A stretch of 39,465 bases of DNA from the IMG/VR virus record IMGVR_UViG_3300047326_000025, positions 1 to 39,465 of that record, one strand, 5' to 3'. Positions 4,106 through 39,465 of this stretch are shown in pieces (position 1 is the stretch's first letter; the number at the start of each line of letters is the position of its first letter). Under the pieces are notes generated by a model, which saw only the letters and a list, made by a program, of their open reading frames with translations, searched no databases and was not told the DNA's origin. The position numbers and the translations under genes are program-made. Origin of the DNA: a virus.

Positions 4106-6235
4106 ATGGATTACCCCGAAATACCGGCTACGAGCGACGACGATATCGTCAGGGAGGCGCGCATGCGCCTCGAGCTCGCGATTGAGTGGGAATCCTCTAA
4201 CCGCACGGATGCGCTGACAGACTTTGAGTTCCGCAATGGCGACCAATGGCCGGTGGACATTAGGCGAGACCGTGAGACGGACGCTCGCCCCTGTATTACT
4301 GTTAACCTCACTGACGCTATGGTGCGTCGGGTGTCTAACGCTTGCCGTGAGAACCGCCCTCGCATCAAGGTGGACCCGGTAGACCAAGCGACCACCGACA
4401 CGGCGAAGGTCTACAACGGCATCATACGCCACGTCGAGAACATCTCCGGGGCGGACTACGCCTACGACACCGGGGTTGATTGCGCCATAACGGGTGGCCT
4501 TGGTTACATCGGTGTTACCACCGATTACATCGACTTTGACTCGATGGACCAAGAGATAAAGATTGAGGCCCACCGTAACCCGTTCCGTATCTACTTCGAC
4601 CCGGCATCGCAGATGCCTGACGGCTCTGACGCCCAGTGGGTGATTGAGTCGGATTTTATGCGCCGGGACGAGTACCGGATGAAATACGGCCAACTCGACC
4701 CGTCCGGGTGGACGTTCTTGGGTGCCGGCGACAACGTCGCCAATTGGTCGAACAAAGAGGAAATCCGCGTCGCCAAGTATTGGCGAATCGAGCACAAGAA
4801 AGACAAGGTCGTCCGTCTGTCGAACAAGCAGACGATGCTCAAGTCGAAGTTTGACAAAGGCGCCTTTGGGCGCGCTGGGGTCGTGGTTGTCGATGAGCGG
4901 GACACTATTGTTCCGACCGTCAAGTGGTATCTCTGCACCGCGACTAAGATCCTTACCTACGGCACGTGGCCGGGGCGTTACATCCCGATTGTCCCGGTCT
5001 ACGGCCGGATGCTCGATGTTAACGGTAAGGTGAAGCTTAAGGGCATGGTCCGCGACCTACGCGACCCCGCCCGTATGTTCAACTACTCCGAGACGGCGAA
5101 GACTGAAGCTTACGCGCTCCAGCCCCGGGCACCGTGGTTGGGCCCCGAGGGATTCATGGATGGCCACGAGGCCGCTTGGCGGGACGCTAACCGCAAGTCT
5201 ATAGTCGGGCTCGAGTACACCCCGACCAAGAACGTTGATGGCACCCCGAACCCGCCCCCGATGCGCCAAAACCCGCCCCCGTTGGGCGCTGGGTTCCAAG
5301 AGTGGAGCGCGTCGAACCAATCGAATTTCATGGCTGTCGCGGGTATGCCACACGACCCGAACATGGACAAGCAAGGCGAGGTTGTCTCGGGCGTAGCCCT
5401 CCGGCAACGCCAAGGTTTGGCCGATATCGCGCACTTTGACTTCTACGACAACCTTACGCGGTCTCTTAGACATCTAGGTAAGATTATCGTAGACCTCATC
5501 CCGCACATCTACGACACGGAGCGCATGCAACGCATTGTGATGCCCGACGGCCGCTCCCAAATGGTCGCTATTAATCAGAAGCAGAAAGACCCGGTTACGG
5601 GTGCAATACTTGCTGTTAAGAATGACCTCACCGTGGGCCGATACGACGTTACGATGGATACGGGGCCTGGTTACAAGACAGCCCGCCAAGAGTCCACAGA
5701 GGCCAAGCTAGAGCTGTTGGCCACGCCGTTGGGCGAGATGACCGGCAAGGTAGCCGGCGACTTGATCGTCCGGGGCATGGATTGGGAGGGTGCGGACGAG
5801 ATTGCAGACCGCTTGCAAGCCGCCATCCCGGGGGCGCAAACCGACCCGAACTCGGATCTGCCGCCTAAGGCGCAGATGATGATTGCCCAACTCCAAGGGC
5901 AGCTCAAGCAAGCCAACCAACAAGCTATGGCGTTTGAGCTCGAGCTCAAGTCGAAGCACCAACTGGAGCACATCAAGCAAGAGGGCGAGACCAAGCGCAC
6001 CCAAATGGAGATTGGTGCGAAGGTCCACGACACGACGCTCAAGACCGCTACGGCTAGGTTTGACACTCACGTCAAGAGCATCACCGCGCGCGACGTTGCC
6101 GAGATCAACACTGCCGGCAAGATCCTAGGCCAACACGTTGGCCACGCCCAGAACAAAGAAATGTCCGCGATAGACCACGCGGAAGCAAAAGACTTACAGG
6201 CCTCAGAGCCTAAACCTACATCGTCCCCCGCCTAA
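4106..6235 (+). CDS. Portal protein (P22-like)
   Basis: The product has 709 residues, close to the length of P22 gp1. The N-terminal segment FEFRNGDQWP, and the overall order of a long alpha/beta body followed by a glutamine- and lysine-rich helical C-terminal region (about 595-690), fit the P22-type portal family. It forms the dodecameric ring through which DNA enters and leaves, and it docks terminase and the tail accessory proteins. The C-terminal coiled-coil stretch would correspond to the portal barrel region. It lies after terminase and before the scaffold, the usual order. Confidence 0.85.
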   Translation: MDYPEIPATSDDDIVREARMRLELAIEWESSNRTDALTDFEFRNGDQWPVDIRRDRETDARPCITVNLTDAMVRRVSNACRENRPRIKVDPVDQATTDTAKVYNGIIRHVENISGADYAYDTGVDCAITGGLGYIGVTTDYIDFDSMDQEIKIEAHRNPFRIYFDPASQMPDGSDAQWVIESDFMRRDEYRMKYGQLDPSGWTFLGAGDNVANWSNKEEIRVAKYWRIEHKKDKVVRLSNKQTMLKSKFDKGAFGRAGVVVVDERDTIVPTVKWYLCTATKILTYGTWPGRYIPIVPVYGRMLDVNGKVKLKGMVRDLRDPARMFNYSETAKTEAYALQPRAPWLGPEGFMDGHEAAWRDANRKSIVGLEYTPTKNVDGTPNPPPMRQNPPPLGAGFQEWSASNQSNFMAVAGMPHDPNMDKQGEVVSGVALRQRQGLADIAHFDFYDNLTRSLRHLGKIIVDLIPHIYDTERMQRIVMPDGRSQMVAINQKQKDPVTGAILAVKNDLTVGRYDVTMDTGPGYKTARQESTEAKLELLATPLGEMTGKVAGDLIVRGMDWEGADEIADRLQAAIPGAQTDPNSDLPPKAQMMIAQLQGQLKQANQQAMAFELELKSKHQLEHIKQEGETKRTQMEIGAKVHDTTLKTATARFDTHVKSITARDVAEINTAGKILGQHVGHAQNKEMSAIDHAEAKDLQASEPKPTSSPA

Positions 6236-7288: not shown

Positions 7289-7291
7289 AGA

Positions 7292-7801
7292 GTGACTATT
7301 AATAGCCCTGGGTTGTTTTTATCAACTGCAAGCAAAACGCTATCTAAACGGTTTGCTGCTAAGTGTGGAAAGCCAGATGCGAACGATTGCATTCCTTGGC
7401 TTGGGACTAAAACGCGCGGCGGTTACGGCGCTATAAGAGCAAGTAACTCTGCCTATACAACCGCGCATCGCGTGGCTTGGGCACTAGAACGGGGAGACCT
7501 GTCTCCCGAAATCCTGGTGTGCCATAGCTGCGACAACCCCTCCTGTGTAAACGCCGATCATTTATTTATCGGAAGCCCGAAGCAGAACACTGCTGACATG
7601 GTTACCAAGCGCCGACACAGTTGGCGCAACGGAACACCGTGGCAGAAGTTGAATTCTACTGACGGTGAAAGAATTAAAGATCTACGCAAAACAGGGAAAA
7701 CTCAGCAGGAAATCGCCGATTACTTTGGCGTTAGTCGGCCGCTGGTATCAATGATTCTCTCAGGAAAAATACAACATTCAACGCCCTTAACTGGGCAATA
7801 A
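7292..7801 (+). CDS. HNH endonuclease with C-terminal helix-turn-helix, inserted before the coat gene
   Basis: The product has 169 residues from a GTG start 3 bases after the scaffold stop. Residues about 55-105 have the HNH layout: AHRVAWAL, then CHSCDNPSCVNADHLFIG (zinc cysteines and catalytic His), then QNTADM. The last 45 residues read as a helix-turn-helix (TQQEIADYFGVSRPLVSMIL) for DNA binding. This architecture is typical of free-standing phage homing endonucleases. It separates scaffold and coat genes, normally adjacent, and the coat gene downstream appears to have lost its ATG, as if the insertion disturbed the junction. Confidence 0.85.
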   Translation: MTINSPGLFLSTASKTLSKRFAAKCGKPDANDCIPWLGTKTRGGYGAIRASNSAYTTAHRVAWALERGDLSPEILVCHSCDNPSCVNADHLFIGSPKQNTADMVTKRRHSWRNGTPWQKLNSTDGERIKDLRKTGKTQQEIADYFGVSRPLVSMILSGKIQHSTPLTGQ

Positions 7802-9978: not shown

Positions 9979-11178
9979 ATGTCTACAATATCGAGTAGTG
10001 CGCAAGACCTCATCACCGGGGCTTTGCGTAATCTGAATGTCCTTGCGGCGGGGGAAACCCCGTCCGCGGGTGACAGTGCGGATGCCTTGCAGGTGCTCAA
10101 TGACTTGTTGGAGAGCTGGTCAATCGAGCACTTGACGGTCTATTCGGTGGTTGAAAACATCCTTTCTCTTACCCCCGGCCAGTACCAATACACCATCGGT
10201 AACCCGGTCGGGGGTACTTTTACGGGTACGGTTACGGGCGGTAGCCCTGCTATCACCTCAGTCAACCCGCTCCCCTCCGGCGTACTGCAAGCCTCGGCTA
10301 CAGCCTCGGCCGGGTCTACCTTGACTGACTTGGGCGGCGCAATCCCTTCGGGAACTACCGCCTTATACGTCAGCATCCCAATTACTTTCACAGGTGCCCC
10401 AACAGGCACCGCGGCGACGTTAGCATCAGTTAACGGCGGCGCTGCCGCGTGGCCGTATGTCACCGGCTCCAACATAGTTACATTCTCGGACGGCGAGCAA
10501 CGCTCGGTTACGTTCACGAACGCTTCCGCGTCGGTCACTTGGACCGGCGCCCTAACGGGCTCGCCTACTGCCTTAGCGAGCATGCCGAACATGATAATCA
10601 TGTCGGCCAACGCTTCCGCTACTCCGGCCACCAACCCGGACACGATTACGTACACGACCCCGGGCAACTTCGCGGTTCCGCGTCCGTTACGTATCACCAA
10701 CTCATTTACTCGCATCACGACGAGTGGAACGACCGGCCTTGATTATCCTATCGATTTCGAGGGTGGACGAGACAAATACACAGCTATTGGTCTTAAGGGG
10801 CTACAAGGTCCGTGGCCCATCGTCGGGTGGTATAACCCGACTTATCCATATGGCAACGTTTATTTCTACCCCAACCCATCCGGAGCCGGTGCGCTCCACT
10901 TGTTCACGGATACGATCTTTACTGACTTCACTACCCTGAACCAAAGCATCAACTTGCCGCAGGGCTACGCCCGCGCGCTCAAGAAGAATCTAGCGGTAGA
11001 GCTCGCCCCGGAATACAACAAGCCGGTATCGGCAATCCTGCAACGTCAAGCTGACGAGTCGTTGAAGGTCATCAAGTCCCTCAACTCCACGCCGACCGTC
11101 CAAGCTTTCTACGATACCGACATAGTCCGCGGCCGGCGCAATGACGCGGGGTGGATCCTCAGTGGCGGCTTCATTTAA
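9979..11178 (+). CDS. Tail accessory / head completion protein (P22 gp4-like) with inserted domain
   Basis: The product has 399 residues. The N-terminus (ALRNLNVLAAGETPSAGDSA, then LNDLLESWSIEHL) and the C-terminal third are those of the P22 gp4-type adaptor, which binds under the portal ring and starts tail assembly. P22 gp4 has 166 residues. Here a Thr/Ala/Ser-rich insert of roughly 170 residues (about 75-240) reads like a beta-sandwich domain, so the protein is much longer than the prototype. It ends where the gp10-like gene begins (TAAATG). Confidence 0.75.
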   Translation: MSTISSSAQDLITGALRNLNVLAAGETPSAGDSADALQVLNDLLESWSIEHLTVYSVVENILSLTPGQYQYTIGNPVGGTFTGTVTGGSPAITSVNPLPSGVLQASATASAGSTLTDLGGAIPSGTTALYVSIPITFTGAPTGTAATLASVNGGAAAWPYVTGSNIVTFSDGEQRSVTFTNASASVTWTGALTGSPTALASMPNMIIMSANASATPATNPDTITYTTPGNFAVPRPLRITNSFTRITTSGTTGLDYPIDFEGGRDKYTAIGLKGLQGPWPIVGWYNPTYPYGNVYFYPNPSGAGALHLFTDTIFTDFTTLNQSINLPQGYARALKKNLAVELAPEYNKPVSAILQRQADESLKVIKSLNSTPTVQAFYDTDIVRGRRNDAGWILSGGFI

Positions 11179-36601: not shown

Positions 36602-37303
36602 TTAGAGCGCTCCTAGACTTTTGAACTTGTCTACTACGGCGGTAAGTAGGCGCTCCCGCGCAGCGGACCATGCCGCAGACTCTGCCGCGGACCTTGCCGC
36701 GGACCCTGCCGCGGACCATGCCGCGGACCATGCCGCAGACTCTGCCGCGGACCTTGCCGCGGACCTTGCCGCGGACCATGCCGCAGACCCTGCCGCGGAC
36801 CTTGCCGCGGACCTTGCCGCGGACCTTGCCGCGGACCATGCCGCAGACTCTGCCGCGGACCATGCCGCAGACTCTGCCGCGGCCCTGAGATCGGCACGCC
36901 CCGTATTCAGGTAGTCAAGAACGACCGGCGGAACTGGCGTTCCCCAGAGATGGACAGCAGATAAGGCAGACGTTCCCCAGAGATGGACAGCAGATAAGGC
37001 AGATTGTCTGGCGTGCTCGTAGAGCAGGTCAGTCGCGTCAAAGCGAGCGACTATCTTTCGCTTCTGCGCGACTACCTTGTCATCCCCGTACTCGATTTGG
37101 CCGCCCATCTCGACCAGGCAAAGCGTGGCTCCTGGCGCGTATTGGAGCGCGTCAAACGGGTGCAAGGATGCGTGCAGCCCGTAGTTGCGCATTGATATTT
37201 CTTTCCGAGAGATCCACCGGCCGTTGGCCGGAATTGGTTTCCCGTCGCGGAGCGTTTCGCCGACGAAGTGATAAGCCAAGACTGGCTTCTTTTTTGTGCT
37301 CAC
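36602..37303 (-). CDS. DUF7666-like protein with Ser-Ala-Ala-x repeat tail
   Basis: The product has 233 residues from GTG 37303, which shares bases with the preceding TGA (GTGA). The N-terminal domain (VLAYHFVGETLRDGKPIPAN, GLHASLHPFDALQYAPGATL, then an acidic-basic strand region) matches what I recall as DUF7666 in phages. Next comes an 11-residue unit repeated twice (ALSAVHLWGTS), and about 18 copies of Ser-Ala-Ala plus Trp, Arg, Glu or Gly, probably one long helix. It ends with LLTAVVDKFKSLGAL. The role is unknown. Confidence 0.75.
   Translation of the reverse strand: MSTKKKPVLAYHFVGETLRDGKPIPANGRWISRKEISMRNYGLHASLHPFDALQYAPGATLCLVEMGGQIEYGDDKVVAQKRKIVARFDATDLLYEHARQSALSAVHLWGTSALSAVHLWGTPVPPVVLDYLNTGRADLRAAAESAAWSAAESAAWSAARSAARSAARSAAGSAAWSAARSAARSAAESAAWSAAWSAAGSAARSAAESAAWSAARERLLTAVVDKFKSLGAL
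36664..36885. repeat. Tandem 12-bp repeat (CCGCGG-containing)
   Basis: About 18 tandem copies of a 12-base unit close to TGCCGCGGACCA, with variants at the last bases, encode the Ser-Ala-Ala-x repeat of the DUF7666-like protein on the minus strand. Each unit contains the palindrome CCGCGG or CCGCAG. Copy number could change by slippage in steps of four residues. Confidence 0.9.
36938..37003. repeat. Perfect 33-bp tandem duplication
   Basis: The 33 bases at 36938-36970 are repeated exactly at 36971-37003, duplicating 11 residues in the DUF7666-like protein. Exact identity, including third positions, points to a recent duplication. Confidence 0.9.
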
Positions 37304-37443
37304 GAGTACACCTGTACGAGCATGTAGACGGCTACTAGACCCCACACCAAAGCGAGTACGACGGTTATGCCTTGCGCAATGGCGTATTCATCTCGAGCGG
37401 GACACCACATCTGACGGTGGCGGAAACGTCTATTCGGGTTCAT
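37300..37443 (-). CDS. 47-residue single-pass membrane protein
   Basis: A basic, His/Trp-rich N-terminus (MNPNRRFRHRQMWCPARDEY) is followed by one transmembrane helix (GITVVLALVWGLVAVYMLV). AGGAG lies 6 nt before ATG 37443, and the gene overlaps both neighbours (ATGA, GTGA). Junctions and ribosome binding site make it a convincing small gene. The function is unknown. Confidence 0.6.
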   Translation of the reverse strand: MNPNRRFRHRQMWCPARDEYAIAQGITVVLALVWGLVAVYMLVQVYS

Positions 37444-38418: not shown

Positions 38419-38745
38419 ATGGAGATTATAGATATCATGCCTACTAAGGGTAAGACGAAGAAGCCGCAACACGTCATAGACAAGTACGTGAAGCGATACA
38501 TGGCCGGAGAGCAGGCCACATCTCTCGCAAAGGAGGCGGGAGTCAGCAAACCAGGGTTTTACTTGTGGATCCAAAAGCACAAACAACAGATCCTCAAGCA
38601 AGCTAAGACGGCCGGCATGACGCCGGCGGATGCGGCAACCGCGGATAAGCGAGAGCTCTTGATCGAGCTCGAGCAGTTGAGGCTTGAGAACCGAAAGCTG
38701 CGAGAGAAGGTCGTAGCCATGATGATTAAGAGCGGGGAGATATGA
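38419..38745 (+). CDS. IS3/IS911 OrfA-like helix-turn-helix and leucine-zipper protein
   Basis: The product has 108 residues. After a basic leader (MPTKGKTKKPQHVIDKYVKR), AGEQATSLAKEAGVSKPGFYLW is a helix-turn-helix. The C-terminal LIELEQLRLENRKLREKVVA is a short leucine zipper, exactly the layout of transposase OrfA of IS3-type elements. No OrfB, inverted repeats or target duplication are visible, so it appears to be a stand-alone regulator, perhaps the one that binds the nearby palindromes. The start may instead be the ATG at 38437. Confidence 0.7.
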   Translation: MEIIDIMPTKGKTKKPQHVIDKYVKRYMAGEQATSLAKEAGVSKPGFYLWIQKHKQQILKQAKTAGMTPADAATADKRELLIELEQLRLENRKLREKVVAMMIKSGEI

Positions 38746-38880
38746 GACTAGTAGATGAACATTAACAAATCTTAACGAACAGAGAAAAGCTAACGGCTAC
38801 AAGGATGTAGCCTATATGGCTATTAGACTATTTTACTATTTCCCTTGAAATCGGGAGAATCGCATGATAGGGTATTAGAT
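38746..38880 (+). other. Intergenic stretch upstream of the structured RNA
   Basis: This AT-rich stretch contains one perfect hairpin, GGCTAC/GTAGCC (38795-38812), shortly after the OrfA-like gene, without a T-run, and TATTAGAC (38821-38828), the reverse of the GTCTAATA motif. The promoter of the structured RNA lies at its end. No gene is seen. Confidence 0.4.
38845..38873 (+). promoter_or_regulatory. Promoter for the structured RNA
   Basis: TTGAAA (38845-38850) and TAGGGT (38868-38873) with a 17-bp spacer, preceded by TTTCCC. The start of transcription would fall near 38880, about ten bases before the closing stem of the folded RNA. Confidence 0.6.
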
Positions 38881-39065
38881 ATAAAGATACGTAAGATGCA
38901 GTTTCAGAGTCAGAGACAGCCTTTGGGGGCTGTCGAAGAGTCAGAGTGAGGCGCAGTAGTTAACTCCGCCTCTCAGCCCGGCGGAACCAAAGGAGCCGGG
39001 CAGTAAGACGACGAATACTGACGCTGCCCCTTGGTCTAGAGCTGACTCTGACACTGCATCTTACG
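38881..39065 (+). ncRNA. Candidate structured RNA with long closing stem and complementary loops
   Basis: The ends 38890-38913 and 39042-39065 pair over 24 positions with a single mismatch. Inside lie hairpins GACAGCC/GGCTGTC (38915-38934), GAGGCG/CGCCTC (38948-38972) and GCCCGGC/GCCGGGC (38976-39001). CCTTTGG in the first hairpin's apical part (38920-38926) is perfectly complementary to CCAAAGG in the third hairpin's loop (38987-38993), allowing a kissing interaction within or between molecules. A second AGAGTCAG copy (38937-38944) could replace the first in pairing with CTGACTCT. No protein gene fits here, and no known RNA class is recognised. Confidence 0.7.
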
Positions 39066-39085
39066 GGAAATATTATTTATTTCCC
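39065..39085 (+). other. Hairpin directly after the structured RNA
   Basis: GGGAAATA (39065-39072) and TATTTCCC (39078-39085) form a perfect 8-bp hairpin with a 5-base loop. It shares its first base with the closing stem and its last bases with the upstream element of the next promoter. It might terminate the RNA, but no T-run follows. Confidence 0.45.
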
Positions 39086-39115
39086 TTGATTGCATAGTAT
39101 ACGTATATGTATACT
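39086..39115 (+). promoter_or_regulatory. Promoter with inverted repeat, for the gene at 39151
   Basis: TTGATT (39086-39091) and TATACT (39110-39115) with an 18-bp spacer, preceded by TTTCCC. The spacer and -10 contain AGTATAC-GTATAT-GTATACT, an inverted repeat with 7-bp arms covering 39096-39115, a likely operator. AGAGG for the gene lies downstream. Confidence 0.65.
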
Positions 39116-39150: not shown

Positions 39151-39465
39151 ATGTCAAGTATTGATGATGAGCGTAAGCGAATCTATAAAGGTGTTTACTT
39201 GGATCTGGTAGAGGACCTTCGGTCCGATAATGCAATAGCTCGAGCAGCCGATAAGGCTGCGGTTAGCGTAGATGCAGAGACTATTGCTCTCTACCGTAAG
39301 TACAACATGATGGACAAGCTCCCGCGCCGGCTACAAGGTGCGCCGGCCGATGCTTGGGGTTCGTATAACGGTAGCGGTCACCGTAAGGCCGAGCGCCCTG
39401 TCTCGAGCGAGAAGAGCGAGCGAGATCGCCAGCTAGTTATGGAATGGAGCAAGCGACTAGCTCCG
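39151..39465 (+). CDS. Helical protein running off the window edge (continues at base 1 if circular)
   Basis: From ATG at 39151, 105 codons are open to the end of the window. MSSIDDERKRIYKGVYLDLV, then a helix-turn-helix-like part (NAIARAADKAAVSVDAETIA) and a basic, Ser/Arg-rich C-terminal third. AGAGG lies about 14 bases upstream, and a -10-like TATAAC is closer. A DNA-binding role is plausible because it sits behind an operator-bearing promoter next to the OrfA-like gene. No family is recognised; the end would be the TAG at 31-33. Confidence 0.6.
   Translation, partial: MSSIDDERKRIYKGVYLDLVEDLRSDNAIARAADKAAVSVDAETIALYRKYNMMDKLPRRLQGAPADAWGSYNGSGHRKAERPVSSEKSERDRQLVMEWSKRLAP

Follow-up and report, generated by a model that had tools for sequence, protein, structure and literature searches.

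The window, meaning the whole stretch of DNA that was analysed, is a viral record of 39,465 bases in which P22-like terminase, portal, and capsid genes all run rightward, accompanied by a leftward replication block (DNA polymerase A, a DnaB-like helicase, and an exonuclease) and an integrase gene. Its TerL is assigned to Terminase_6N/6C, with relatives that include the P22-like phage IME10, and its portal to P22_portal. The closest phage by terminase is L005 (IMGVR_UViG_3300020034_000047), with a TerL identity of 84%. Synteny with L005 crosses the window ends. In L005, the counterparts of the helix-turn-helix gene (38.4 kb), of genes at 1.5 kb, and of the terminase (2.2 kb) are collinear, which implies a circular or permuted record.

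Between the helix-turn-helix gene and a small gene cut by the window end lies a 176-nt element, in a locus that forms a row of small genes, each separately promoted (Table 1). With the ends joined, the element is 2.6 kb 5' of the terminase gene; the integrase gene is 3.4 kb from it. The element holds no open frame of at least 50 aa, only an ATG frame of 17 codons at 38896; this was not accepted as a gene, since inspection by eye found no Shine-Dalgarno sequence to serve as its ribosome site.

Several other features of the window were recorded. A tRNA-His gene (anticodon GTG; 597–672) separates the small-gene region from the terminase genes, ~1 kb downstream of the element if the ends join. Tandem repeats of ~15 nt (GCCGCGGACCTT/ATGCC...) occupy 36650–36890 inside the minus-strand gene 36602–37345, which encodes a DUF7666 protein, and the window's most stable 180-nt stretch relative to GC content lies at 9981–10160 (−83 kcal/mol), at the start of gene 9979–11178.

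Table 1. Predicted features at and around the element, in window coordinates
Feature	Position	Strand	Description
Upstream gene	38419–38745	+	108 aa, helix-turn-helix protein; weak HTH_Tnp_1 / terminase small subunit-like; syntenic relative in L005
Predicted element promoter	38839–38873	+	Box TTTCCCTTGA; −35 TTGAAA (38845–38850); 17-nt spacer; extended −10 TG-A-TAGGGT (38868–38873)
5' arm of closing helix	38890–38913	+	Inverted-repeat search and fold
Hairpin 1, GACAGCCUUUGGGGGCUGUC	38915–38934	+	8 bp; exposed UUUGG(G); z −4.7 alone
Enclosing helix GUCAG / CUGAC	38940–38944 / 39018–39022	+	5 bp, around hairpins 2 and 3
Hairpin 2	38948–38972	+	6+3 bp with internal loop; z −3.6 alone
Hairpin 3	38976–39001	+	Stem GCCCGGC/GCCGGGC, 7 bp; z −3.5 alone
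CCCCUUGG	39027–39034	+	Second possible partner of the hairpin 3 loop (pseudoknot), from duplex energy
3' arm of closing helix	39042–39065	+	Inverted-repeat search and fold
Hairpin GGGAAAUA-UUAUU-UAUUUCCC, then UUGAUU	39065–39085	+	After the helix, from the fold; weak, non-canonical terminator candidate
Next promoter, same box TATTTCCCTTGA	39078–39115	+	−35 TTGATT; −10 TATACT; palindrome GTATACGTATATGTATAC in and around spacer
Downstream small gene	39151–39465	+	Cut by window end; no family

Fold and loop complementarity

The ends of the element, CGTAAGATGCAGTTTCAGAGTCAG and CTGACTCTGACACTGCATCTTACG, close into a helix with a single U.C mismatch. They are the sole inverted repeat of the window that combines arms of ≥16 with a spacer of 40–260 nt, for which our own arithmetic gives a chance expectation of ~3e-6 per window. 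The preliminary description of this DNA had reported pairing at 23 of 24 positions with three hairpins between the arms; the inverted-repeat search and the fold recover the former, and the fold contains the latter as hairpins 1–3. The minimum free energy is −89.5 kcal/mol, well below that of shuffled sequences, a mark of structured ncRNAs (z −8.15 for 38881–39075 and −6.71 for 38888–39067, with 0 of 200 shuffles as stable in each case). The fold is real and striking, is absent from Rfam, and is known from a single sequence.

The stability signal is owed largely to the closing helix, since the interior alone (38914–39041) gives a z of only −2.1 (16 of 500 shuffles), although hairpins 1–3 are individually strong. 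Folding is equally good for the minus strand (−89.7 kcal/mol) and for single-stranded DNA (z −8.0), and stability by itself therefore distinguishes neither RNA from DNA nor the two strands from each other.

Kissing between CCTTTGG in hairpin 1 and CCAAAGG in hairpin 3 had also been proposed. The two heptamers are indeed exact complements, the former at 38920–38926 and the latter within the 12-nt loop GGAACCAAAGGA of hairpin 3 (38983–38994; unpaired probability 0.84–1.0). CCTTTGG, however, does not form a loop: hairpin 1 pairs both of its C residues (unpaired probability 0.04 and 0.02) and frees its GG only in part, which leaves UUUGG/CCAAA, 5 nt, as the exposed complement. An exposed 5-nt match among three loops has a chance of ~5%, and the 7-nt version one of 0.2% if stem 1 partly opens. 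CCCCUUGG would form the stronger duplex with the hairpin 3 loop (−8.2 kcal/mol, vs −5.0 for the exposed bases of hairpin 1), and a direct repeat, AGAGTCAGAG, at 38906–38915 and 38937–38946, the second copy of which includes the GUCAG of the enclosing helix, gives the 3' arm a possible second partner inside the element. With these two competitors, a shape switch is as conceivable as a kissing complex. The loops are a weak argument for a packaging RNA. AAAGGAG in loop 3 was also considered as a Shine-Dalgarno sequence and rejected, no start codon lying at a suitable distance downstream.

Promoters, transcript ends, and the search for relatives

A sigma-70-like site precedes the element, ending ~16 nt 5' of the closing helix, so that transcription would be expected to start near 38880, ~10 nt before the helix. 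This site ranks fourth in a crude weight scan for sigma-70-like sites on both strands of the whole window, scoring 11.4 compared to 7.8 for the best minus-strand site in its vicinity. Four exact copies of the 10-mer TTTCCCTTGA are present in the window, against 0.02 expected, at 38839 (+), 39080 (+), 34494 (−), and 28897 (−). All four boxes carry a −10-like hexamer 17–18 nt after the −35 hexamer, and both minus-strand copies precede leftward genes. Judged by sequence, these sites look like a promoter class of the phage, of which the element owns one member.

Three of the four promoters have GTATAC in or beside the spacer, and the one lacking it is the element's own. With 12 copies in the window vs ~6 expected, GTATAC is not strongly enriched overall, and escape of the element from a repressor of the other promoters of this class is therefore a lead only.

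Downstream, the same box recurs in the promoter that precedes the next gene, and a further strong promoter lies at window position 52. The hairpin at 39065–39085 is followed by no U-run and does not appear in the terminator scan of the window; a transcript could stop there or read through.

Known families and homologues were sought at several levels. A cmscan of the window against Rfam, at the gathering threshold and at E ≤ 10, gave chance-level matches only, and a DNA search of phage and plasmid records returned nothing convincing. Scanning viral contigs with gapped hairpin patterns and the two neighbour genes yielded no homologue. A scan based on an alignment of the helix-turn-helix protein returned the L005 contig only, and the arm pattern gave 18 single, chance-like matches, none of which fitted the covariance model. 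That model (R1), built from the single sequence, reached at best 18.6 bits elsewhere among 146 terminase-related loci, a chance-like score, and had no match in 21 viral records and 28 bacterial genomes. As a one-sequence model is weak against diverged relatives, this null is absence of evidence. One of the loci, L004, is the same phage as the window, and its sequence stops short of the element. With no homologue found in these searches, covariation support is absent.

Folding scans of loci other than the window covered part of the planned windows. At other loci, the inverted repeats of L031, L075, L080, L098, L087, and L039 and the stable stretches of L009, L010, and L018 were rejected as relatives, being AT-rich or host-type palindromes, parts of long open frames, or of unrelated architecture. 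Very stable palindromic elements do occur upstream of terminase in rhizobial prophage relatives (7290–7560 and 5730–5930 in L080, 9311–9480 in L098); they share CTACAGCGCC...GACGCGCGGCGC motifs and are probably host-type dispersed repeats.

The syntenic place in L005 was the most informative comparison. Downstream of the helix-turn-helix gene there (4644–4973) come non-coding DNA, a promoter-like site near 5428 (TTGCGG, 17 nt, TATACT, by eye), a fold at 5551–5757, and a small gene. The L005 fold is closed by 9 bp and contains several hairpins (−74.4 kcal/mol, z −4.4, 0 of 200 shuffles); among the 329 of 940 planned windows that were scanned, it has the most negative z in the 4.5 kb upstream of TerL. 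With filters off, the two best local matches of R1 in L005 are hairpins resembling hairpin 1, at 7 bits. The small gene after the fold bears a faint likeness (a GSY motif) to the gene that follows our element, and BLASTP between the two gave no alignment. By sequence, the L005 fold is different from the window element and not recognisably homologous to it; it is a suggestive parallel in position. A separate conserved non-coding stretch, GTGTATACCCAACCATCCGCGTT / GTGTACCCCACAATCCGCGTT, is found at 845–911 of the window and at ~5226–5299 of L005, on different sides of the small genes and followed in both phages by an AT-rich, promoter-like region.

Interpretation and comparison with known systems

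We consider it about an even bet (probability ~0.5) that the element is an orphan phage-encoded structured non-coding RNA with a short transcript of ~180–205 nt. This reading starts from two observations, namely the fold itself and an upstream site that matches the promoter class in sequence. Host sigma-70 RNA polymerase would start at ~38880 from the phage promoter, and the ends of the transcript would close into the 23-bp helix. Transcription may then stop inefficiently at the 39065–39085 hairpin, or the closing helix may be trimmed as an RNase III-like substrate. The compact three-hairpin body would display the 12-nt loop of hairpin 3, through which the RNA would most likely act in trans, by base-pairing or protein binding, in phage regulation or against the host.

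The non-coding RNA reading is favoured because the fold lies far beyond shuffles, a promoter-like site is well placed before it, and the box of that site is repeated; no competing minus-strand promoter lies nearby. It gains further from L005, which has a promoter-like site and an end-closed multibranched fold at the same place. Nor does the element have to serve as leader of the downstream gene, for which a separate promoter lies in between. Against the reading stand the failure of the searches to find a homologue or a canonical intrinsic terminator, the non-homology of the L005 element, the equal folding of both strands and of DNA, and an interior that alone is only mildly beyond shuffles. 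The preliminary description had seen an undescribed-looking structured RNA with its own promoter and no open frame. That much is upheld by the fold energy, the repeated box of the predicted promoter, the empty Rfam search, and the frame analysis above, whereas the phi29-like, kissing-loop, or packaging function attached to it is not.

The main rival, which we hold to be possible though on the unlikely side, is a cis-acting structured 5' leader of a rightward operon. Transcription from 38880 would read through past 39085 into the gene at 39151 and beyond, and the structure would either act on RNA polymerase, in the manner of HK022 put antitermination, or be cleaved within its closing helix by RNase III, which would define the mRNA end. 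A near-perfect 23-bp helix is a suitable substrate for RNase III. The lack of a U-run terminator after the fold agrees with such read-through, as does the position of the element just 3' of a promoter and ahead of rightward genes, in an order that by L005 synteny runs into the structural genes. A precedent exists in HK022 put, a promoter-proximal phage RNA acting in cis (PMC9378689); yet put is ~70 nt long with two stem-loops, compared to the closed 176-nt multibranch here. The leader reading also has to accommodate the separate same-box promoter between the element and the next gene, the strong one at position 52, and a ribosome-binding region of the next gene that is not paired with the element.

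Next comes a role as DNA, which we judge improbable: the inverted repeat would serve as protein-binding arms, as a replication or recombination site, or as what is left of a small transposable element, the fold being a by-product. The equal strength of the fold as DNA and on either strand agrees with this reading, the arms contain repeated GTCAG/TCAGAG units, and the arms supply much of the z-score. The three additional hairpins, individually strong, are not accounted for, nor is a promoter that points into the element, and the integrase gene is kilobases away. No target-site duplication was seen, and no second copy was found in the window, viral contigs, phages, or plasmids. A miniature transposable element was rejected on the same grounds, its ends reading AAAGATA / GGAAATA without a target-site duplication and other copies not being found.

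More speculative, and very doubtful in our view, is a new class of multimerising or shape-switching phage RNA that would work through CCUUUGG, CCAAAGG, and CCCCUUGG and be swapped for unrelated, similarly closed RNAs in related phages such as L005, the locus then being a fast-evolving RNA slot whose role is conserved.

Judging from L005, phages of this group may house non-homologous structured RNAs between the helix-turn-helix gene and the small gene that follows, on the current basis of one sequence and one loosely similar neighbour. If transcribed, the element would add an unclassified, very stable RNA to a P22-like phage group that has relatives in proteobacterial genomes.

The weakest reading, a packaging or multimerising RNA like that of phi29 with loop-loop contacts between copies, is extremely improbable: size (~170–180 nt), paired ends, and hairpins with some loop complementarity (UUUGG/CCAAA of hairpins 1 and 3) recall it, but RF00044 has no match in the window even at E ≤ 10, the phage carries a headful P22-type terminase and portal instead of a phi29-type packaging ATPase, and the complementarity lies largely inside a stem, with only 5 exposed nucleotides and an intramolecular competitor. 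The earlier caveats that the terminase is of another type than that of phi29 and that the sequence gives no evidence of relation thus hold, and the analogy that they qualified does not. To our knowledge, P22-type headful motors use no RNA.

The remaining comparisons are with RNAs encoded by phages. HK022 put lies behind early promoters and is a cis-acting antiterminator (PMC9378689); the element resembles it as a structured phage RNA directly behind a promoter and differs, compared by architecture, in being a single closed multibranch with a long closing helix. GOLLD and ROOL, which multimerise through kissing loops (PMC12286853), are likewise phage-encoded structured ncRNAs found near tRNA genes, and the tRNA-His gene would provide such a neighbour here; they are, however, several hundred nucleotides long and have Rfam models, which find no match in the window. 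By its architecture in the case of put, and by the Rfam models in that of GOLLD and ROOL, the element belongs to neither family. Compared with the small regulatory RNAs of phages and prophages, it has no canonical terminator or known target and an unusually long closing helix, and it shares with them a predicted promoter of its own, short length, non-coding character, and a place in a region of small, separately promoted genes.
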